A stretch of DNA of 64,000 nucleotides from Mariprofundus aestuarium (GTDB lineage Bacteria > Pseudomonadota > Zetaproteobacteria > Mariprofundales > Mariprofundaceae): NCBI RefSeq assembly GCF_002795805.1, contig NZ_CP018799.1, forward strand, positions 1,667,001 through 1,731,000, in the 5' to 3' direction. The translations under genes were made by a program, and so were the position numbers. How positions within the stretch are numbered: the stretch's first letter is position 1; each line of letters begins with the position of its first letter. The notes under the pieces are model-generated. The model saw nothing but the letters and a program-made list of their open reading frames with translations. It was not told the origin of the DNA and did no database searches. Below are positions 34,172 to 49,088 of the stretch, one piece after another.

Positions 34172-34471
34172 CTAAATCTCTCGGCAGATGGTCGAGGGTG
34201 GACGGTCTAAGCGAGATGCAATCCAGCGCATCGATTGCTTGGCAGCAATGCCTCTAGATATTTCTTCTCGTTCAGAAAGGCTTAGAGCTATAGTTGCTCG
34301 TCGCCGTGGTGTAGGTCGAATACCGCCTGTCGGTGACAGTTGCCCATAAATTGAGGAAGAGCCTCTATCAAAGACTTGGCCGATAGCTTTTAATGACTCC
34401 CCACGCTTCCAGCGATCCCATATCTCGGACTTCTGTTCAGGGGTATATTTTATTCTGGTTCTGTAACTCAT
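34172..34471 (-). pseudogene. IS30-family transposase remnant (N-terminal part only)
   Basis: About 100 residues. The N-terminal helix-turn-helix (YRTRIKYTPEQKSEIWDRWKRGESLKAIGQVF) is followed by the GGIRPTPRRRA link and the second HTH, ending SRLDRPPSTICREI. Full IS30 transposases continue with the DDE domain (~200 more residues), which is absent: a stop follows REI and unrelated sequence begins. Upstream (34503-34520) GGTGGATGCAACACTTAG is a plausible terminal inverted repeat; its partner is missing. It is a deletion relic between the phosphatase gene and yajR. Confidence 0.75.
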
Positions 34472-34519
34472 ATCCAACACTCCATCTGTTCATTCTAGAC
34501 TAAGTGTTGCATCCACCGG

Positions 34520-34561: not shown

Positions 34562-35923
34562 TTAGTTAGATCCCCCTCCAACTAAGGCCATCAACTGCTG
34601 TTGATCGAACTTCTTTTTATCCACTTTAAGGTAGGCCACGCCATCTTCCAGAATCACTTTGGCTTCGTGTACGCCATCGAGCTGTTTGATCTTCTCTGCA
34701 AGCTGATCTGCTTCAGCTTCATCAGCCACATTCACCTGCATCATGAATGAGGAGAGGTAGGCAGGAACCTTCATACCCAGTGAAAGCAGCAGCCAGCCAA
34801 GGGCCGCGATAGCGCAGGCGTAAAATACGGCCTGAATACCGAATTCGCCGGAGAGCCAGCCACCCCCTGCCCCGCCGACAAAAGCACCGAGGAATTGGGA
34901 GGTTGAGTAGACACCCATGGCTGTACCCTTACTCTCTACAGGAGCCATGCGCGAGATCAGGGAGGGTAGGCTCGCCTCCAGCACATTGAAGGCGATGAAG
35001 AAGAGCAGCAGGCCAATACCCACTGCTATAAGCGAACGCTGATCAGTTCCCAGCATCACCTCGGAAACCATCATCAGAAGAATTGAACCGATGAATACCT
35101 GCTTCATCTTCTGCTTCTTCTCGGCAATCATCACCAGTGGTGCCATGCCAAGCACGGATAACATCAATACAGGCAGATAGAACCACGCATGCTCATCCGT
35201 CGGCAGTCCAAGCTTGTCCCTGAGAACGAAGGGAAGTGCGCTGAACATCGCCATCATGATGCCGTGTTGAATCAAAATTCCGACATCGAGCCGGAACAGC
35301 TGGGCATCGAAAAATATCTGTTTGAGCTGGGCGGGAACGGTCTCCACCTCGCGGTGAAAATTCAGGTGTAGAGGGTCGGGAACGAGAAGATAGAGGATAG
35401 CAATACCGGCTGCTGCCAGCACAGCTGTCATCCAGAAGATGCCATCGACACCAATGCCGGCGTTGAGAAGCGGACCGATCATCAGTGCCAGCGTGAACGA
35501 CATGCCGATGGAGACACCCATGATAGCCATCGCCTTGGTGCGCTCCTCCTCCTTAGTCAGGTCAGCCATCAGCGCCATCATTGCCGCGGCGATGGCACCT
35601 GAGCCCTGAATGGCTCGGCCGATGATCACGCCCCATATTGAGTCTGACATCGCAGCAATCACACTGCCGATGGCAAACAGTAACAATCCAAGGGTAATGA
35701 TCGGCTTGCGACCAAAACGATCGGAGAGCATGCCGAAGGGAATCTGGAAGATCGCCATGGTCAGCCCGTAAACACCAAGGGCCAGACCAATCAGCATCGG
35801 GGTTACCCCTTCCAGTCCTTCCGCATATAGCGAAAAAACCGGCAGGATCATAAACAGTCCCAGCATGCGCAGGCCATAGATACCTGCCAGCGAAAAAACG
35901 CTGCGACGCTCGAAGCTATTCAT
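34562..35923 (-). CDS. yajR: MFS transporter with C-terminal ferredoxin-like domain (YajR-like)
   Basis: 453 residues, close to E. coli YajR (454). Twelve hydrophobic segments with the MFS motif A (FGMLSDRFGRKPI) between helices 2 and 3 and GRAIQGSGAIAAAMMALMAD. A C-terminal ~70-residue beta-alpha domain (MQVNVADEAEADQLAEKIKQLDGVHEAKV) matches the YAM domain of YajR. Substrate unknown. It is last in the operon HCO-like subunit I / ctaA / yajR, 18 bases behind ctaA, which hints at a link to copper or haem handling. Confidence 0.85.
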   Translation of the reverse strand: MNSFERRSVFSLAGIYGLRMLGLFMILPVFSLYAEGLEGVTPMLIGLALGVYGLTMAIFQIPFGMLSDRFGRKPIITLGLLLFAIGSVIAAMSDSIWGVIIGRAIQGSGAIAAAMMALMADLTKEEERTKAMAIMGVSIGMSFTLALMIGPLLNAGIGVDGIFWMTAVLAAAGIAILYLLVPDPLHLNFHREVETVPAQLKQIFFDAQLFRLDVGILIQHGIMMAMFSALPFVLRDKLGLPTDEHAWFYLPVLMLSVLGMAPLVMIAEKKQKMKQVFIGSILLMMVSEVMLGTDQRSLIAVGIGLLLFFIAFNVLEASLPSLISRMAPVESKGTAMGVYSTSQFLGAFVGGAGGGWLSGEFGIQAVFYACAIAALGWLLLSLGMKVPAYLSSFMMQVNVADEAEADQLAEKIKQLDGVHEAKVILEDGVAYLKVDKKKFDQQQLMALVGGGSN

Positions 35924-35941: not shown

Positions 35942-36985
35942 CTATTTGTTTTCAGTGGTCTGCAGCATTCGCAGGGTAAACAGCGTGAAGGCGAAGAGCA
36001 GCATCGCACCACCCTGATGTGCAACACCGAGATGCAGCTGTACCACGGAAAGCAAGGTTGCCACACCGAGGCAGAACTGGATCACAACCATGCCCAGCAT
36101 CAGGTGCATGCCAAGCTTCGCAGGCCCGACCAGCTCAAACCTTCTGGAGTAGAGAAATGTACCGATCACCAGCAGCAGTACTGTTTCAGCCAGCATACGG
36201 TGGTTGAACTGAACCGCTGCAATATTCTCAAACCAGTTCAGGTAATAGGGCTGCAACATGCCGTAACCTTCAGGTATAAAGCTACCGCCCATCAATGGGA
36301 AGGTGTTGTAGGCAAAACCAGCCTTCAGGCCCGCCACAAAGCCTCCTGCAGCCACTGTAATGGCAATCAGCAGGGTAATCCCAGCTACAATCTTAAATAG
36401 CGGTCTAACGTCATATAGCGAAGGTTCACGCTTGGGAAAGAGGAGCCCCGCAGCCACCCAGAGGATATAGGCAAAGATCGCGAATGCCGCCATCAGATGC
36501 GCAGTCAGGCGATACTGGCTCACATGCGTCTGATCGAAACCACTGCTCACCATGTACCAGCCCAGCACGCCCTGCATACCACCAAGCAGGAACATGATGA
36601 CCAGTTGCGGGCGAAGCGGTTTGCTGATCTTTCCTGCAAACAGGAAGTAGAGGAATGGCAACAGGAAGAAGATGCCGATCATCCGGCCCCATACACGGTG
36701 GATGTACTCAAGCATGAAGATGCCCTTATATCCTTCCAGATCCATATCCGGATTCAGTTCGGTAAACTCAGGGATAAGCTTGTAGTGCTTGAACGACTCC
36801 AGCCAGGCGGATTCGCTCATCGGTGGAATCCAGCCCATCAGTGGATCCCATGTCATCATGGAGAGCCCAGAGTGGGTCAATCTTGTTGCACCACCAATCA
36901 CCAGCATAATGAAAATCGCAGCGCAGACGAAAAGTAGCCAGTAGGCGATCTGTCTGTCGTACTTTACCTGATCGACTGTACTCAT
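35942..36985 (-). CDS. ctaA: Heme A synthase (COX15/CtaA)
   Basis: Oxidises haem O to haem A for aa3 oxidase. 347 residues, eight hydrophobic segments. Conserved elements are GGATRLTHSGLSM, EYIHRVWGR (haem ligand His), SQYRLTAHLMAAF, QFNHRMLAE and LGVAHQGGAMLL, giving four His at the expected places. It is long-type (proteobacterial/mitochondrial, no Cys pair). The start overlaps the upstream subunit I-like stop (ATGA). Its partner ctaB is at 43933, so the haem A pathway is complete in the window. Confidence 0.95.
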   Translation of the reverse strand: MSTVDQVKYDRQIAYWLLFVCAAIFIMLVIGGATRLTHSGLSMMTWDPLMGWIPPMSESAWLESFKHYKLIPEFTELNPDMDLEGYKGIFMLEYIHRVWGRMIGIFFLLPFLYFLFAGKISKPLRPQLVIMFLLGGMQGVLGWYMVSSGFDQTHVSQYRLTAHLMAAFAIFAYILWVAAGLLFPKREPSLYDVRPLFKIVAGITLLIAITVAAGGFVAGLKAGFAYNTFPLMGGSFIPEGYGMLQPYYLNWFENIAAVQFNHRMLAETVLLLVIGTFLYSRRFELVGPAKLGMHLMLGMVVIQFCLGVATLLSVVQLHLGVAHQGGAMLLFAFTLFTLRMLQTTENK

Positions 36986-38358
36986 GACTGCTCCGCTCCA
37001 TTAACAAGTTTATTGCGCCCTTTGAGCATCACAGGCAGCACAACGATGGCAAACAGAAGGCCACTAAGAACAGCAATCACGCCACCAATACCCACCAGAT
37101 CCTGTGGCGTAATCATAGTCTGCAAGCCGATATCCTGAGTGGTTCCAACCACCTTACGTTTCATGCCGTGACCACCCCCCCAGGCAAGGCCGACGATATG
37201 CATGATCTGACCCACAGCATAGGCATAAACCTGAATTCGGGCCCATTTCAGGTTTGGCGTAGCAAAACCAAATTGCGGCAGCCAGTAATAGGTCATCGCC
37301 ATAAAGGCCATGGTTACAGCCACAATGGAACCATGGTAATGCGCGGTAATCAGGGTGCTGCTTTCACCAATAAAAAGCCCCAGCACACCACCCATGCCAA
37401 ACAGGATGATAGAGAAGATAAGTGCAGCATAGAGGTGGCGTGACTCCTTATCCGCAGCAGGCTGGGTAAGCAGTGCCCAGACTACAGGCAGACCGATCAG
37501 TAGTGGCGCAACACCATTACCATCACGCATCAGCCATACATACCAGTTCATGAATTCCGGGCCACCGACATCAAAACTCAAAAAAGGCCAGGGCATCATC
37601 AATACCGGAGCAATACCGACAGCAAATGCAGCCATAAGATAGGCTGGTTTAGCATTGATCTTCAGTCCACAGGCCTGAGCGACCCAGAGCCAGCTTACGC
37701 AAAGCAGTGCGGTATGGGCAAACTGAAGAACATGGCCGCCTGCCCAGTAGAGACTCTCGTAATAAGAGCGACCACCACTGGTAAGCGGACTGTCAAGAAA
37801 AGTCCAGACCAGTGCAATCAGTGCAATCAGGGTGGCAATTGCTGCGGTAAGCGTACCGAAACGAATTGTACCTTCTCCAGTTGCCTGTCGCGATTTAGTA
37901 CATTCAAGCGACCAGAGGCTGCGCAGCACCAGCAGAAGAACACCACCACCAAAAACTATCATTCCCTTGATAAACATACGATTTTCAAGCATCGGAACAT
38001 AGTTGTTGGTTAAAGGATTGGCATCACCGGTCAGCGGAGAGACCCCAATCACAATACCACCAAATACAACCAGGATCAGAGAGAGCCAACCGGTCATGAC
38101 CTGTCTGTTACTGGTGTTTAACGTCCAGAAGACACCGGCAATGGCAATCAGCCACCACAACACGGTGAAATCCACATGCAGCACCAGTGCAGTATAAAAG
38201 AAGTCCTTCCAGGGCATCTCATAGGTGGTCCTAGCCAGCGCCAGAAGCAGCGGATAGATGCCGGATGCCAGTAGAAAACCAACCGCAACATAGAGCCAGC
38301 CAACGGCCAGCTTACTCTGGTCAGATTCAGTAATGGGAAGGGAGAACTTAGTCGTCAT
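36982..38358 (-). CDS. Heme-copper oxidase subunit I homologue lacking the CuB site
   Basis: 458 residues, 12 or so hydrophobic helices. Helix II has the low-spin haem His (LVLHVDF, H61). Helix X has both haem ligands in TAHYHGSIVAVTM (H340 and H342), followed by YYWLP as in B-type oxidases. Helix VI keeps one CuB-type His (WAGGHVLQF, H209), but the position of the cross-linked Tyr is Phe213. Helix VII, where oxidases have His-His, reads WPFLSFDVGG (L260, S261). It therefore should bind haems but not a normal CuB. AGGA precedes ATG 38358. It is the first gene of an operon with ctaA. It could be an electron-transfer or sensing relative, or a divergent NO reductase; none is shown. Confidence 0.8.
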   Translation of the reverse strand: MTTKFSLPITESDQSKLAVGWLYVAVGFLLASGIYPLLLALARTTYEMPWKDFFYTALVLHVDFTVLWWLIAIAGVFWTLNTSNRQVMTGWLSLILVVFGGIVIGVSPLTGDANPLTNNYVPMLENRMFIKGMIVFGGGVLLLVLRSLWSLECTKSRQATGEGTIRFGTLTAAIATLIALIALVWTFLDSPLTSGGRSYYESLYWAGGHVLQFAHTALLCVSWLWVAQACGLKINAKPAYLMAAFAVGIAPVLMMPWPFLSFDVGGPEFMNWYVWLMRDGNGVAPLLIGLPVVWALLTQPAADKESRHLYAALIFSIILFGMGGVLGLFIGESSTLITAHYHGSIVAVTMAFMAMTYYWLPQFGFATPNLKWARIQVYAYAVGQIMHIVGLAWGGGHGMKRKVVGTTQDIGLQTMITPQDLVGIGGVIAVLSGLLFAIVVLPVMLKGRNKLVNGAEQS

Positions 38359-38514: not shown

Positions 38515-39102
38515 ATGATGAAACATGAAAAAAGCATACGTATTATCCACCTTCTCCTGATGTTCACCGTGCTTGGCCAGCTACTGACTGAGCAGTTCAT
38601 GAAGGTTCCAAAACCGGGGGAACAGTTTGAAGCATTTGCCCTCTTTCTTTTCTCAATTCATCAGCTTATTGGCTTTGCTGTCATGATTATAGCCATCACC
38701 TACCTGATGGTGGTTATGGACAATCTGGCACACCGGAATCGTCTATTCCCGTGGCTGGACGGGACATTGCGAGCCTCCCTGATATCAGAGGCCAAACGGG
38801 ATATCCCGGGGTGGTTCAAAGGCAATCTCCCGCCCCCTGACCAGGCTCACCTGATTGCCGGTACAGTGCATGGGCTGGGGCTGATGCTGGCGACAGGAAT
38901 GGGAATGACCGGCGTGATCATCTATCTCGGCATGAAACATGATGGAAGCATGGGTGCAGGGATTCACACCCTCAGGGAGATCCACGAACTTCTCGGAACA
39001 GTGATGTGGATATTTGTCATCGGCCATATTCTCATGGCAATCATGCACCAGACCAAAGGCCACCGTGTTCTGCAGGATATGTTTACCAGCAGCAGAGAAT
39101 AA
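38515..39102 (+). CDS. Cytochrome b561-type membrane protein
   Basis: 195 residues, four transmembrane helices. Bis-His haem b candidates are H12 in helix 1 (IRIIHLLLMF), H49 in helix 2 (FSIHQLIGF), and His in TVHGLGLML and IFVIGHILMAIMH. The architecture is that of bacterial b561/Ni-Fe-hydrogenase cytochrome b subunits. It normally passes electrons between quinol and another redox partner. It is divergent from the subunit I-like operon, with a 156-base shared upstream region. Two adjacent ATGs (38515, 38518) are both possible. Confidence 0.8.
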   Translation: MMKHEKSIRIIHLLLMFTVLGQLLTEQFMKVPKPGEQFEAFALFLFSIHQLIGFAVMIIAITYLMVVMDNLAHRNRLFPWLDGTLRASLISEAKRDIPGWFKGNLPPPDQAHLIAGTVHGLGLMLATGMGMTGVIIYLGMKHDGSMGAGIHTLREIHELLGTVMWIFVIGHILMAIMHQTKGHRVLQDMFTSSRE

Positions 39103-41039: not shown

Positions 41040-41594
41040 TTACTGGCCGGGATGAACTGGCACAGCGGGGACTGGAGTATCAACGACAATGATTTTTCCT
41101 ATCATGGATGCATGTCCACTGCCGCAGAACTCTCCGCAGAGCAGATCAAATGTACCCGCCTTAATTGGCGCGAATTCGATGGTCTTGAATTCACCGACCT
41201 TGATCCTGTTCATCAATTTCAGTTCACGAACGACGATTGCATGACGCATATCCAACGTGGCCAGGTGCAGGCGATAGGTAACCCCCTTATCAAGCTCCAG
41301 GGTGAACTTGCCCCAATCATAATTCTGGGCCAACAGGTAGATATCTGAGTCTGCCGGTGGATGAACCACAGGCAACTCACCTTCAACACGCACGGTGTAC
41401 TTCTCCACCATCTGTTTTACCTTGTCCTGAAAGCCGACCAGATCTTCACGGGTGATCTTCTCTTTGGTGACCTTAATGTCCGGCTGCTGGGCCTTCATGT
41501 TCATAAATACCGGAACAACAATTGCCACAGCAAATACAACCGTCACCAACAGCAGCTTATAATTAAGACCTTTCTTTACGGGTTGCTCGCTCAT
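41040..41594 (-). CDS. Short cytochrome oxidase subunit II-like protein with CuA site
   Basis: 184 residues: one transmembrane helix (~13-31), then a periplasmic cupredoxin domain. A full CuA set is visible: H118 (LDMRHAIV), C153, E155, C157, H161 and M164 in CGEFCGSGHASMIG. Only one helix and a short length resemble B-type (ba3) or sNOR subunit II rather than the 260-residue ctaC at 46655. AAGGA precedes ATG 41594 by 6 bases. It may pair with the subunit I homologue at 36982; the gene is 2.7 kb away in the same direction. Confidence 0.82.
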   Translation of the reverse strand: MSEQPVKKGLNYKLLLVTVVFAVAIVVPVFMNMKAQQPDIKVTKEKITREDLVGFQDKVKQMVEKYTVRVEGELPVVHPPADSDIYLLAQNYDWGKFTLELDKGVTYRLHLATLDMRHAIVVRELKLMNRIKVGEFKTIEFAPIKAGTFDLLCGEFCGSGHASMIGKIIVVDTPVPAVPVHPGQ

Positions 41595-43275: not shown

Positions 43276-43863
43276 TTAATGGGCTACGTCAGAATTAAGC
43301 CACTTACGAAGGGCAATAGCAATATCATCAGGCGCAGTATGGTGGCTCATGATATCAAGAAGCTCACCTTCGCTGTTAATCATAAACAGCATACTGGTAT
43401 GAATCACTTCATAGCGACCAGTCTCAGCATCTCCACCCTGCTTAAAGAACTCCGCATCATAAGCCGCTGTGGTCTGCTTAATCTGGTCAGATGTTCCGGT
43501 GAGGCCGATGATGCTGGGATGAAAGAAGGCCACATATTTAGCCAGATGTTCGGCTGTATCTCGATCCGGGTCTACCGTGACAAACAGAACCTGAATTTGA
43601 TCAGACAGAGAGCCGAGTGACTTCAGAGCCATAGCTACATTGTTCATTGTAGCAGGACAGATATCAGGACAGTGCGTATAGCCGAAGAAGAGCAGCACAG
43701 TTTTACCCTTGAAATCATGTAGAGATACAGGGCCAAGTACCGACTGAAGTGTAAAATCTTTCGCATTATGTGGCTCTGAACTACACGAAGAGAGCAGCAT
43801 CAACATAAATAGAAAAGCAGTAAGAAGAGCTGTTGGTCGCTTAAAAATCAGTAAATTATCCAC
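43276..43863 (-). CDS. SCO1/SenC lipoprotein (second of three)
   Basis: 195 residues. Lipobox LSSC (Cys ~27). The Sco core FFGYTHCPDICPATM with CxxxC, VDPDRDTAEHL, and the third ligand His in VIHTSMLFMI are intact. The apparent start is GTG 43863 with no ribosome site. It lies 70 bases behind ctaB in the same direction and most likely serves the aa3 oxidase. Confidence 0.9.
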   Translation of the reverse strand: MDNLLIFKRPTALLTAFLFMLMLLSSCSSEPHNAKDFTLQSVLGPVSLHDFKGKTVLLFFGYTHCPDICPATMNNVAMALKSLGSLSDQIQVLFVTVDPDRDTAEHLAKYVAFFHPSIIGLTGTSDQIKQTTAAYDAEFFKQGGDAETGRYEVIHTSMLFMINSEGELLDIMSHHTAPDDIAIALRKWLNSDVAH

Positions 43864-43932
43864 GCAGAAAATACTATCACAACAGGATTAGAGTGGGAGA
43901 GGTTTATGAAACCTCCGTCAGGACAATTCTAG

Positions 43933-44823
43933 TCAGATAGAGTCGAATATCATGATTCCGAAAAGTAGAATCAGATAAACAATAGAAAAGGCGAAAACGC
44001 GCATGTCACAATCCCGATCAGAGCGGTAGAAGCGGACGGCCATAAACAGGAAAATAGCGCTGAGAACAACTGAAGCGGCCAGGTAAATAGAACCAGAGAT
44101 ATCAAACAGCCACGGCATCATCGCAACAGGAACCAGTGCAATCGTATAAAGAAGAATCCGCAGCTTGGTGGCTTGAACTCCGCAGGCAACCGGAATTACA
44201 GGTACGTTAGCACGCGCATAATCTTCGCGGTATTTCAGTGCCAGAGCCAGAGCGTGTGGCTGCTGCCATACAACCATGATAGCAAATAGGATCCAGGCGG
44301 CTGCGCCAAGTTCATTGGTGACAGCGGCATAACCAACCATCGGAGGCACAGCACCAGCGATACCACCAAACTGGTTGGCCCATGGCGTCCTGCGCTTCAT
44401 CCACATGGTGTAAACACCAACATAACCCACCACTCCGACGCTTGTGACAATAGCAGTCAGTGGGTTAACAACCCATGCCATCAGAGCCAGAGAAGGTATT
44501 GTAAGAAGAAGTGAAACAATGAGCACACGATTCGCAGAAACAGCACCAGCAGCAAGGGCGCGATTACTAGTCCGCTTCATCAACTGATCAATATCGCGAT
44601 CGTAATGGTTATTGAGCATGCAGGAGCCCGCTGTGGCCAGCCCCAGAGTCAGGAAGGTCCAGCCAATCAGATGCCAGTGCGGCATAATACCATGGTTACC
44701 AAAATAGATGCCGGTCAGGGCAGCTACCAGCGTAAGACCAACGATGCCCGGTTTGGACAGCGCAATGTAATCCGAAATAACGGAACGGGCGGAGACCTGC
44801 TGTTCTGCTAATGAATGACTCAT
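43933..44823 (-). CDS. ctaB: Protoheme IX farnesyltransferase (heme O synthase)
   Basis: Adds the hydroxyethylfarnesyl tail to haem B. UbiA-family membrane protein of 296 residues with about nine helices. The first Asp motif NNHYDRDIDQLMKRTSNRAL and the second loop KYREDYARANVPVIPV are intact. It lies after the ctaD terminator and upstream of sco. It supplies substrate to CtaA (35942). Confidence 0.95.
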   Translation of the reverse strand: MSHSLAEQQVSARSVISDYIALSKPGIVGLTLVAALTGIYFGNHGIMPHWHLIGWTFLTLGLATAGSCMLNNHYDRDIDQLMKRTSNRALAAGAVSANRVLIVSLLLTIPSLALMAWVVNPLTAIVTSVGVVGYVGVYTMWMKRRTPWANQFGGIAGAVPPMVGYAAVTNELGAAAWILFAIMVVWQQPHALALALKYREDYARANVPVIPVACGVQATKLRILLYTIALVPVAMMPWLFDISGSIYLAASVVLSAIFLFMAVRFYRSDRDCDMRVFAFSIVYLILLFGIMIFDSI

Positions 44824-44898
44824 TGGTATTTAAACCCTCTCTACGTCTGTTTAAACCTGATAAGCAAGCCGTTGCCGACGAGCTTACCGCGTTTAAGC

Positions 44899-44929
44899 AA
44901 ATGAAAAGTGGCCTCCCGAAGGAGGCCAC
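44899..44929 (-). terminator. Rho-independent terminator of the ctaE-sco-ctaC-ctaD operon
   Basis: Perfect 9-bp stem GTGGCCTCC (44908-44916) with GGAGGCCAC (44921-44929), TTCG loop on the minus strand, then TTTTCATTT. It lies 16 bases past the ctaD stop. Confidence 0.9.
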
Positions 44930-44944
44930 CGCTCATCTTTCTAC

Positions 44945-46627
44945 TTAGTGATGCCCACCAGTATGGCCAGGATGCGGCTCAAACTCAGGCTTAGGATTGT
45001 CGATGAAGTTGTATGGATGCCAACCTTCAGGACAAATCACAGGAGTCGGGAAGTTACCCTGACCTGGAATAATTGCAGTAGCAGTGAATTCCAGAGACTC
45101 TGAACCCCATGGGTTCGCATTGGTGCACTTCTCGCCAGCAATTGCACCATGCAGCCATACCACGATCATCAGCAGTGCGCTTACGAAGGTGATGTAGAGG
45201 CCGATGGTAGACCAGTGCTGTGCAGAAACGATGGTCGCATTATCAGCAAACATCTGGTAGTCCATGTAACGACGTGGCATGCCTTCCATACCTGCGAAGT
45301 ACAGTGGACCCATCACGATGTTCATGCCGATGAAGAAGCCAACAGCAGTCAGCTTAGTCATGAAGGTGTTGCACATACGTCCGGTCAGTTTAGGGAACCA
45401 GAAGAATACGCCAGCGAAGATCGCCATACCGCCGGATACTGCCATCACATAGTGGAAGTGAGACATGATCACGTAGGAATCGGAGATACCATAATCGATA
45501 GCAGAGAGTGCGTTTGGAATACCGGTCAATGCGCCGATGATCAGCATGAAGAATGCGCCAACTGCCCAGTACATTGGACCAGTGTAGCGGATTGCGCCAC
45601 GGTACATGGTACCAGTCAGTGACAGCATCAACAGGCCGAATGGCAGTGAAATCAGCAGTGTGGTGAACGTCTGCAGCAGACGAAGCCAGTCAGGAAGACC
45701 TGCAACGTACGCGTGATGTACCCAAACGTCAGAAGATACTGGAATGAACGCGATAACGGACCAAACAGTAGCTTTGTAGTTGAATACGTCGTTACGAGCA
45801 GATACTGCGAAGATTTCAAACAGAATACCCATGAACGGCAGCAGAATCACGTATACAGCTGGATGTGAGTAGAACCAGAAAAGGTTCTGATACAGCAGTA
45901 CGTCGCCACCAACTTCAGGATTGTAGAAACCAAAGCCGAGGTATTTGTCCAAGCTCAGAAGCAGTACAGATGCAGCCAGTACTGGTACGAAGATCAGCTG
46001 AATAACGTTTGCAGTGAATACACACCATACAGTCAAAGGCATCTGGAACCAGCCCATGCCCTTGCAGCGCATGAATGCAACAGTACAAGCCAGGTTAACA
46101 GCACCGAATACAGAAGACATACCGAGGATAACAACTACTGAAGAGTACAGTGCAGTGTTACCAACAGCGTCAGTCAGTGAGTAAGGCGGGTAGCCTGTCC
46201 ACATACCGTTATATGAATCTGGAATCACCAGGTTCATCAGTGCAAGCAGGATACCAGACCACAGCAGCCATACTGACATTGCGTTAACACGTGGGAACGC
46301 CATGTCCTTGCCGCCAACCATGATAGGCACAGCCCAGTTAGCTACGAAGCCCAACAGGGCAGGAATCTGGAAGCCCAGAATCATTACGGCACCGTGCATT
46401 GTCAGCCACAGGTTGTAGATATCACCATTGTCGGTGATGTCCGGACCTACGGAGCCAAGCTCGAGACGCATTGCGGATGCAGCAAGACCTGCTACAACGA
46501 ATGATGCAATCGCACCAATCAGGTACCATACACCGATGACCTTATGGTCAAGGGTGAACACCCATTCTTTTACTGTTTTTGGCTGACCCGGTTTACCGTC
46601 CGGCTCATGTCCCATAAAACCACTCAT
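44945..46627 (-). CDS. ctaD: Cytochrome c oxidase subunit I, A2 type
   Basis: Catalytic subunit, 560 residues, 12 helices. Ligands: H78 (haem a), H255, H304 and H305 (CuB), H390 and H392 (haem a3 and a). Helix VI reads FWFYSHPAVYV: the Glu of the A1 D-channel is Ala and the Tyr-Ser pair (Y253, S254) precedes the His, the signature of A2-type oxidases; the cross-link Tyr259 is present. The D-channel entry Asp (KDMAFPR) is retained. GAGGAGG precedes ATG 46627. It is last in the operon ctaE-sco-ctaC-ctaD. Confidence 0.97.
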   Translation of the reverse strand: MSGFMGHEPDGKPGQPKTVKEWVFTLDHKVIGVWYLIGAIASFVVAGLAASAMRLELGSVGPDITDNGDIYNLWLTMHGAVMILGFQIPALLGFVANWAVPIMVGGKDMAFPRVNAMSVWLLWSGILLALMNLVIPDSYNGMWTGYPPYSLTDAVGNTALYSSVVVILGMSSVFGAVNLACTVAFMRCKGMGWFQMPLTVWCVFTANVIQLIFVPVLAASVLLLSLDKYLGFGFYNPEVGGDVLLYQNLFWFYSHPAVYVILLPFMGILFEIFAVSARNDVFNYKATVWSVIAFIPVSSDVWVHHAYVAGLPDWLRLLQTFTTLLISLPFGLLMLSLTGTMYRGAIRYTGPMYWAVGAFFMLIIGALTGIPNALSAIDYGISDSYVIMSHFHYVMAVSGGMAIFAGVFFWFPKLTGRMCNTFMTKLTAVGFFIGMNIVMGPLYFAGMEGMPRRYMDYQMFADNATIVSAQHWSTIGLYITFVSALLMIVVWLHGAIAGEKCTNANPWGSESLEFTATAIIPGQGNFPTPVICPEGWHPYNFIDNPKPEFEPHPGHTGGHH

Positions 46628-46654
46628 AAGTTTTCCTCCTCTATTATTTTAAAA

Positions 46655-47437
46655 TTAAATCTTGTCAGCGGTAGTAGCAGCTGATGCAACACCGGTTACA
46701 GATGGTACAGATGCAGCCTGCTCAGCTACGTACGCGTCGTAGTCAGCTTCAGAAAGCGCTTTAACTGTGCCATACATGCCTGAGTGCATGGTACCGCAGT
46801 ACTCACGACAGGTAACAACAGACTCGCCCTCTTCATTAGGCATGAACCACTCCCAGGTAATACGACCTGGCATCAGATCCTCTGTTACACGGTAACGGTT
46901 CATGTAGTGAGAGTGCAGTACATCGTCAGAAACCATGCGCAGTACGACAGGGGTACCAACCTTAACAACCAGTTCGTTGTCAGTGTCGATGCCATTGGCG
47001 TCTACATAGTTCCAGTTCCACATAGAACCAGTAACCTTCACTTCCACAGCGTTGGTTGGAACATTGCGCATGTGGTTGTGCAGGTCAAAACCCTTCACGT
47101 AGAGGAAGAGGTCATCGCCCAGGAACAGCATACAAGGGATAACAACCCAGCCGAGTTTAGCCTGAGGGCTGAGCTGAGGCAGTTTGCCGCGCTCGCCGTG
47201 GCCTTTGCGTACATAGATAACCATGAATGCAATAGTAATAATAGCGAAGACAACACCGAGAATGGTGATATCCCACATGGTTTCATGCCAAACTTCGTCC
47301 CAGTGCTCGTGCGGAGTCCAGCCGTTGTAGTCAGCACGTGTTGCTGGTGCTGCTTGGAATGCATGCGCGAGTGACGGAATCAAAGGCAGTGCAAGCATTG
47401 CCCCCATCACTTTGTGCATAAGTGATTTAACTTTCAT
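46655..47437 (-). CDS. ctaC: Cytochrome c oxidase subunit II
   Basis: CuA-bearing electron entry subunit, 260 residues. Signal peptide (AHAF), two transmembrane helices (~55-76 and ~96-115), then the cupredoxin domain. CuA ligands are H175 in DVLHSHY, C210, E212, C214, H218 and M221 in CREYCGTMHSGMYG; the Trp-rich patch MWNWNY is present. No C-terminal cytochrome c domain, so not caa3. AGGAGGG precedes ATG 47437; its start overlaps the end of the upstream sco by 11 bases. Confidence 0.95.
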   Translation of the reverse strand: MKVKSLMHKVMGAMLALPLIPSLAHAFQAAPATRADYNGWTPHEHWDEVWHETMWDITILGVVFAIITIAFMVIYVRKGHGERGKLPQLSPQAKLGWVVIPCMLFLGDDLFLYVKGFDLHNHMRNVPTNAVEVKVTGSMWNWNYVDANGIDTDNELVVKVGTPVVLRMVSDDVLHSHYMNRYRVTEDLMPGRITWEWFMPNEEGESVVTCREYCGTMHSGMYGTVKALSEADYDAYVAEQAASVPSVTGVASAATTADKI

Positions 47438-48302
47438 GTTTTACCCTCCTAAATTTCATATACGAAAAACTTCCAACAATCAGTGTCAGCCCGAAGATCA
47501 GTGCGCCAGCGGCGACGAAGAGCGGAATGTTGATTGAGTATTTACCATCTTTATAGTTATAGCTGTAACAGGCACCAACAACGAAATCGATCACGTTGGC
47601 GGCAGCGATCTCGCCACCCTTTGCCTTGGTAATGGCCAGCTCCATATCCGTCGGAGTAATCGTACCGCCATACAGGTAACGTGTTACCCGTCCTTTCGGT
47701 GACAGCATGATATATACATTCGGATGCAGGAACATGGCATCACGCGGCGACCAGAAGAACTTAAAACCCATGGAACCCGTAAGCTTCAGGATATCTTCCT
47801 TTTTCAGCATGGTGGTCATCTTCCAACCGTCTGGCAAACCATCAGCAAACCCGGCCTCTTTCATGAAGTTCGCAAGTGTTGCAGGCGTATCGTTCTGGTC
47901 GAAGGAAACGGTAAGAACATTGTAGTCCTGACCAATCTTCCAGCGCTCCACACCCTTCAGTGTCTCGGCAAGATTTTTATTAATTACCGAACAGGCTCCG
48001 TCGCAGGTGTAGTAGCTGAATGCCAACACCAGCGGCTTACCCGTCATCGAACCAAGCTTAAAGTCTGCTCCGGTCTCATCCTGCAGGACAAAATCGTAAT
48101 CAGCCTTTTCACCCAAGTATTTCATCTCTTCAATCTTGAGTATGCTTGGATCAACCACTGAGGTCTTGGTGACATTACCGTAAGCGGCATGCGCACCATT
48201 TGCGAACCCCAACATCACAACAGCGGAAACCGCCATGGCTGCAGCCAGCTTGCGCAGACTGGACCATGACGATTTCACTGAGTGTGAGGAGGTTTGTTTC
48301 AA
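47427..48302 (-). CDS. SCO1/SenC family protein with C-terminal membrane helix (third of three)
   Basis: 291 residues. N-terminal signal, then a Sco domain with SYYTCDGACSVINKN (CxxxC), VSFDQNDTPATL and His in FLHPNVYIML. Unusually, a further ~60 residues end in a transmembrane helix (IPLFVAAGALIFGLTLIVG), giving tail anchoring. The start is uncertain: TTG 48302 gives the longest signal sequence. It is embedded in the oxidase operon between subunits III and II, so it is the likely dedicated CuA chaperone. Confidence 0.85.
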   Translation of the reverse strand: MKQTSSHSVKSSWSSLRKLAAAMAVSAVVMLGFANGAHAAYGNVTKTSVVDPSILKIEEMKYLGEKADYDFVLQDETGADFKLGSMTGKPLVLAFSYYTCDGACSVINKNLAETLKGVERWKIGQDYNVLTVSFDQNDTPATLANFMKEAGFADGLPDGWKMTTMLKKEDILKLTGSMGFKFFWSPRDAMFLHPNVYIMLSPKGRVTRYLYGGTITPTDMELAITKAKGGEIAAANVIDFVVGACYSYNYKDGKYSINIPLFVAAGALIFGLTLIVGSFSYMKFRRVKHES

Positions 48303-48329
48303 TTTATTACAGCCTATATCTACGCGTGC

Positions 48330-49088
48330 TTACCAGAAATAAACCTGGAGCAGCACCCATACGCCAAGAACGTTCACGAAGTGAACATACATGGACATCG
48401 CACGGGTGTATGAGAAGCTCAGGCGGCCTTTAAAGGCAGATGGAACACAGGTCAGCATGACCAGGATACCCATCACCAGATGTGCAAAGTGAATACCGGT
48501 AAAACCGTACAGTGCAGTTGCGAATGCATTTACGCCAATGGTAAAGCCCTGAGCCTGAAGTTCAGACCAGCCAGCAATAGTCATATACATAAATACAACC
48601 CAGATCGCAACGGAGATCAGAGTAAACGTTGCGAAGCCGGAAGCATCACCGTTGAGCTCTTTCTTACGAGCAATACCAATTGTAAAGCTGGACAGGATCA
48701 GGATCAGTGTAGAAATCACCGCTCCGTTCGCACCCAGATCAGCAGGTGTACCTTCTGGTGGCCAAACAGGTGCGCCCAGACGGGCAACCCAGTAACCAGC
48801 AAGAACGCCACCGATAGTCATGATTTCAGTACCGATGAACATGAACATGGCCGATGGTGACCAGTTTTCGTCGTCAATTACGCCGATGGTTTCAGCTGCC
48901 CAGCCAAGACCACCCATAATGGTCATGCCGGCACCTACTGCCAGGACAACTAGTGCAACAGTTTGCATTTCATAAACAAACTGCGCCATAAACGCCAATG
49001 GTAAGAACAGACCTGCACCGAAACCTACAAGTAACGGATTAGGACTGGTATGCCAATGGGCCGTATAATGTTTTATTTCTTCACTCAT
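48330..49088 (-). CDS. ctaE: Cytochrome c oxidase subunit III
   Basis: 252 residues, seven hydrophobic helices. Conserved parts include FMFIGTEIMTIGG, FAHLVMGILVML and the C-terminal AMSMYVHFVNVLGVWVLLQVYF, with the Glu and His of the family. AGGAGGG is 5 bases before ATG 49088. It is first in the operon, an order (III-sco-II-I) that differs from the usual II-I-III. The ~250 bases upstream are AT-rich and should hold the operon promoter; I cannot fix its boxes. Confidence 0.93.
   Translation of the reverse strand: MSEEIKHYTAHWHTSPNPLLVGFGAGLFLPLAFMAQFVYEMQTVALVVLAVGAGMTIMGGLGWAAETIGVIDDENWSPSAMFMFIGTEIMTIGGVLAGYWVARLGAPVWPPEGTPADLGANGAVISTLILILSSFTIGIARKKELNGDASGFATFTLISVAIWVVFMYMTIAGWSELQAQGFTIGVNAFATALYGFTGIHFAHLVMGILVMLTCVPSAFKGRLSFSYTRAMSMYVHFVNVLGVWVLLQVYFW

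Follow-up and report, generated by a model that had tools for sequence, protein, structure and literature searches.

An HCO subunit I homologue that lacks the CuB site and is encoded with haem A synthase in Mariprofundus aestuarium: a possible carrier of haem A

The route by which haem A passes from its synthase, CtaA, into oxidase subunit I is open in the literature (PMC9145763, PMC5249081). SURF1, whose loss of function is linked to Leigh syndrome, holds haem A and helps its insertion into subunit I (PMC9145763). The active-site criteria by which the HCO families are told apart, such as the helix VI Tyr of the A and B oxygen reductases, are tabulated in Table A4 of PMC8756737. In M. aestuarium, the published description of strain CP-5 reports an aa3 oxidase and the absence of a cbb3 oxidase (PMC5513912).

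Here, we describe a protein of M. aestuarium, P0001, that resembles several of these systems in part. With SURF1/Shy1 it shares only a proposed role, that of holding haem A and aiding its insertion into subunit I, together with a complementary genomic distribution; SURF1 spans the membrane twice and has an outer domain (PMC9145763), whereas P0001 has the 12-helix HCO fold. CtaA/Cox15, the haem A synthase, is the product of the paired gene and, like P0001, a multi-helix haem membrane protein, but it belongs to a separate family (PF02628, as against PF00115 for P0001). The closest relative in both profile comparison and tree is eNOR, which also has a related CuA subunit II and a Gln matched by one at the helix VI +3 position of P0001, and some eNOR-type genes likewise adjoin ctaA (L090). 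Unlike eNOR, P0001 has no helix VII His pair and no H(N/D)T motif, carries Phe in place of the diagnostic Gln, and is about 100 residues shorter. The HCO fold, the haem ligands and a short CuA subunit II are also found in ba3-type (B-family) cytochrome c oxidase, from which P0001 differs in the loss of the Tyr, of two CuB His and of the helix VIII Ser/Thr positions.

The window is the whole 64,000-nucleotide stretch of contig NZ_CP018799.1 that was analysed. Its relevant features are as follows:

34562..35923, minus strand: MFS transporter with an HxxxM motif, third gene of the conserved unit (PF07690; order kept in the named loci covering it)
35942..36985, minus strand: ctaA, haem A synthase (PF02628, 325 bits; adjoins in 13/13 full Zetaproteobacteria orthologues)
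36982..38358, minus strand: P0001, 458 aa, homologue of HCO subunit I that lacks the CuB site (PF00115, 68 bits; HCO fold; clade sister to eNOR-type)
37333..37341, minus strand: H340-Y341-H342 codons, helix X haem ligands (invariant in the clade)
37360..37365, minus strand: E332-S333, site of the clade-wide H(N/D)T deletion before helix X (alignment)
37582..37587, minus strand: P258-F259 codons, at the place of the helix VII His-His of HCOs (alignment)
37732..37734, minus strand: H209 codon, helix VI CuB-ligand position, followed by Q212 and F213, the latter at the Tyr position (alignment)
38176..38178, minus strand: H61 codon, at the place of the low-spin haem ligand of helix II (unchanged throughout the clade and in every HCO aligned)
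41040..41594, minus strand: CuA protein related to eNOR-type subunit II, likely subunit II relative for P0001 (Thermus match; tree; neighbourhood in 9/11 named loci)
43276..49088, minus strand: aa3 oxidase cluster of cox3, SCO-like, coxB, coxA, ctaB and SCO genes (Pfam; CtaB by similarity and order)

A sequence-only reading had placed an oxidase subunit I homologue at 36982-38358. The gene is indeed there, as an intact ORF on the minus strand; the plus strand of the same interval is interrupted by stops. P0001 matched PF00115 (COX1) with 68 bits (E 9.6e-19, cut-off 34.8), the only Pfam domain found in it, and only two PF00115 proteins are encoded in the genome, which is a single 2.54 Mb contig. 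The AlphaFold model (pLDDT 76, pTM 0.82) resembles the solved subunit I chains of aa3, bo3 and ba3 HCOs, with TM-scores of about 0.6-0.74 by query length. Direct sequence searches of the solved structures with P0001 or its profile gave no match. P0001 was not matched among viral contigs, and its matches among named plasmids were weak and confined to ordinary HCOs; two distant members of the clade matched no named plasmid. The bit score, the fold and the haem ligands in helices II and X place P0001 in PF00115. By descent P0001 belongs to the HCO fold family, while its residues place it outside the catalytic definition of that family. We found no published account of a CuB-less HCO clade; the main eNOR paper (PNAS 2024) was outside the search, and an earlier mention is possible.

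P0001 was aligned with A, B, C, NOR and eNOR-type proteins. Its His residues are at positions 61, 209, 215, 308, 340, 342, 387 and 397, and H61, H340 and H342 fall on the haem ligand positions of the HCOs compared, the only exception seen at the H342 position being a Lys in a Thermus eNOR-type protein. These are three of the four residues that had been read as haem-type His; the fourth, H209, aligns instead with the helix VI CuB/FeB ligand, so that one of the three CuB ligands is kept. Three His are expected at the CuB/FeB site, and P0001 has H209 alone. The helix VII pair is missing, as had been claimed, but its place is taken by P258-F259 and not by the Leu-Ser at 260-261. The alignment agrees with the proposal that Phe213 stands where the catalytic Tyr should be, and Q212 corresponds to the first Gln of the eNOR-type GHGAQQ motif. 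Upstream of helix X, a deletion of about eight residues between E332 and S333, common to the whole clade, has removed the H(N/D)T motif. Also altered are the helix VIII Ser/Thr positions, which belong to the B-family proton path. Throughout the clade the haem ligands are invariant, while the CuB, Tyr, H(N/D)T and helix VIII Ser/Thr positions have been lost. Many members outside the Zetaproteobacteria keep one helix VII His, and the loss of the CuB site within the clade therefore looks stepwise. The CoxA encoded in the window has canonical CuB motifs and a normal site.

We considered whether other His residues might supply the missing ligands. Most of the main group share H215 and H387, yet in the alignment neither residue coincides with a CuB ligand; among the basal members, L085 and L087 lack H387 and L087 also lacks H215. 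A metal site of another kind may still be present in the pocket. A frameshift or sequencing error hiding a canonical helix VII was rejected: none of the three frames of helix VII encodes a His pair, relatives of 62-91% identity carry the same helix VII change, and the dN/dS of the gene is 0.066-0.096. The HCO-like protein is encoded in 11 loci from named records, the aligned members are similar in length and motifs, and 41 columns are invariant among members that are 27-64% identical to P0001. The low dN/dS (0.07-0.10 when rounded) and the invariant columns both speak against a functionless passenger of the aa3 gene cluster. Several genomes do place the HCO-like gene near that cluster, which would fit such a relict, but in G068 and G075 it forms a tight unit with ctaA on contigs separate from coxA, and we regard a relict as very improbable.

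In profile comparison the clade was closest to the eNOR-type proteins (E 1.3e-30), followed by ba3 (3.5e-16) and A (3.7e-7), and gave no useful match to C, cNOR or Asn-bearing HCOs. The label “eNOR-type” rests here on the Gln criterion of PMC8756737. In the tree, in which long branches were flagged, the clade (100/100) joins the eNOR-type proteins (99/96) inside the B-family branch. F213 excludes P0001 from each of the catalytic groups: there is no helix VI Tyr as in the A and B oxygen reductases; no Gln at the active-site Tyr position as in eNOR, a Gln being present at +3 only; and no Asn, Asp or Glu at the active-site position as in sNOR, CuANOR (bNOR), gNOR, cNOR and qNOR. The earlier view that this could not be a normal oxidase or NO reductase thus held for the oxygen reductases and for every NOR family checked. 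Our best guess from these comparisons is that P0001 is a former eNOR-like subunit I that would no longer carry out HCO catalysis.

Some other HCOs met in these comparisons are worth recording. The GHGAQQ motif marks the Thermus plasmid protein L088 1960-3645, annotated as a cbb3-type oxidase, as eNOR-type; at the position of the helix X low-spin haem ligand His it has a Lys (HFKG). Two Zetaproteobacteria HCOs, L071 and L073, have Asn at the active-site Tyr position (GHVFIN) with the His pair intact, and are sNOR-like by that criterion. Finally, L076 4241-4777 (minus strand) encodes a protein of a type, 170-180 residues long, that covers only the last third of PF00115 (approximately 309-435) and has an HTH motif; such proteins lie near a COX1-family gene in many Zetaproteobacteria.

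The HCO-like gene had been proposed to open an operon with ctaA, and the arrangement fits: its stop overlaps the ctaA start by 4 nt (36982-36985), and the MFS gene follows 18 bp further downstream. The order HCO-like gene, ctaA, MFS gene was constant in the ten named loci measured, and the spacing of the HCO-like gene and ctaA ranged from −23 to +9 bp (ORF-finder calls). The HCO-like protein is present in 14 of 78 Zetaproteobacteria genomes, CtaA is present in the same 14, and ctaA adjoins the gene in 13/13 full orthologues, a tie to haem A much stronger than could be seen from the window. G044 and G075 each carry a second copy, which is divergent and lies beside a divergent CtaA gene, as does the single copy of G074. 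The divergent copy of G075 is clustered with genes for a COX1 protein, an SCO and two cytochrome b/iron-sulphur proteins, and in G044 the HCO that matches is eNOR-type (L072). Outside the Zetaproteobacteria, 12 of 37 members are within 300 bp of ctaA, and others have aa3 genes, SCO or an ABC transporter in their vicinity.

Several features of these neighbourhoods were noted in passing. The HxxxM motif of the MFS protein (34562-35923), conserved in the orthologues checked, has been described for CalT copper transporters (PMC10588857), and the protein might therefore import copper for the oxidase. Just downstream, a short ORF (34172-34480) resembles, by eye, the helix-turn-helix end of an IS30-type transposase. 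On the other side, a cytochrome b561 gene (38515-39102) is divergent from the HCO-like gene and has homologues alongside in L001, L002, L005, L006 and L010. The divergent HCO-like copies in L066 (1605-8861), L067 (1-5885) and L048 (7124-13592) occur with two large cytochrome b/4Fe-4S/FlpD proteins and an SCO, and the L066 and L067 clusters also encode a divergent CtaA and a 167-residue protein without a Pfam match.

SURF1 (PF02104) and Caa3_CtaG had no match in the M. aestuarium genome, and SURF1 and Cox11 were absent from all 78 Zetaproteobacteria. We therefore looked at a sample of 398 Pseudomonadota genomes, 275 of which were CtaA-positive. Among the latter, 216 had SURF1 only, 48 the HCO-like protein only and two both; seven had neither and two only a distant homologue. 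The main-type HCO-like protein was thus found in 50 of the 275. When the exceptions were rescanned with a broader profile, the seven “neither” genomes again gave no match; of these, G219 is only 57% complete. The pattern looks like replacement of one protein by the other. The carriers are concentrated in two class-level groups, which implies few independent events, and the Fisher P value for the SURF1 split cannot be taken at face value.

The gene at 41040-41594 is on the same strand as the HCO-like gene and two genes away. Its product is short, has an intact CuA ligand motif, is 35% identical to a Thermus B-family subunit II and is grouped by the tree with eNOR-type subunit II. Of the 11 named loci, 9 have the CuA gene near the HCO-like gene, and one of the remaining two is truncated at the contig start; in L011 the CuA protein was not found next to the HCO-like gene. 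The product is likely to be a subunit II relative for the HCO-like protein, and it may perhaps keep the haem reduced. The intact CuA protein is also the best argument for rivals in which electrons enter the complex and serve either CtaA or the reaction of a gas at the haem. The latter would be a two-subunit reductase without CuB, in which the CuA protein passes electrons from cytochrome c to a five-coordinate haem that reduces NO, O2 or H2O2. The eNOR-type derivation of both subunits, the intact CuA motif and the retention of every haem ligand are as such an enzyme would have them. However, two of the three CuB ligands, the Tyr/Gln position, H(N/D)T and the helix VIII Ser/Thr positions are gone, and neither the pairing with ctaA instead of coxA nor the SURF1 pattern is explained. 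We consider such an enzyme unlikely.

In the other rival, the CuA protein and the haems of P0001 move electrons between cytochrome c and CtaA during the conversion of haem O to haem A, with no storage or delivery of haem A. The pairing with ctaA and the intact CuA protein in the neighbourhood agree with this, as does the presence of cytochrome b or b561 genes close to several members. However, about 230 of the 275 CtaA-positive genomes sampled are without the protein or a close relative, which indicates that CtaA has no general need for it; no CuA protein was found next to the L011 locus, and the SURF1 pattern is again left unexplained. We hold this, too, to be unlikely, about as much as the reductase. 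The sequence-only reading had also listed a haem or gas sensor. A sensor reporting O2 or NO to the oxidase assembly genes could use the five-coordinate haem expected in P0001, and genes for a PAS protein and a cyclic-nucleotide-binding protein lie close by, but these neighbours are not conserved at all loci and P0001 has no output domain. We regard a sensor as improbable.

The explanation that we favour, tentatively and short of an even chance, is that P0001 is a non-respiratory protein of eNOR descent that takes over haem A from CtaA and delivers it to the aa3 oxidase in the place of SURF1. A haem A assembly factor was among the roles first suggested, and the genomic association with ctaA and the SURF1 pattern would now make it the best-supported of them. 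CtaA would dock on the HCO-like protein much as it would on apo-oxidase subunit I; the new haem A would be held by the kept axial His residues (H340, and H61 with H342), and would then be handed to apo-CoxA, the job otherwise done by SURF1. The aa3 oxidase encoded at 43276..49088 is the likely client. We infer that the haem bound is haem A and not haem B, that the HCO-like protein touches both CtaA and CoxA, and in which direction the haem moves; what the CuA protein does is likewise our inference. The pairing with ctaA (13/13 adjacency and identical 14/78 presence), the complementarity with SURF1, and the keeping of the haem ligands while the CuB site was lost all count for a carrier. Against it, the intact CuA protein nearby suggests an input of electrons that a pure carrier would not need, the SURF1 pattern may reflect very few evolutionary events, and the pairing with ctaA in the Zetaproteobacteria could in part be shared inheritance of one gene cluster. 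Furthermore, in seven CtaA-positive genomes both SURF1 and the HCO-like protein are missing, which means that neither can be indispensable, and two genomes carry both.

The same explanation can be put more widely: the whole HCO clade branching with eNOR would have lost its binuclear site and come to serve, together with CtaA and in place of SURF1, solely as a carrier or insertase of haem A, with a CuA protein of its own in the Zetaproteobacteria. We hold this wider version possible, with less confidence than we give to P0001 itself. A subunit I look-alike encoded with CtaA where SURF1 is absent would be a simple system in which to study the haem A delivery step. If P0001 is a carrier, the HCO fold can persist for haem handling alone; if it is an enzyme instead, it would be an HCO active in the absence of CuB.
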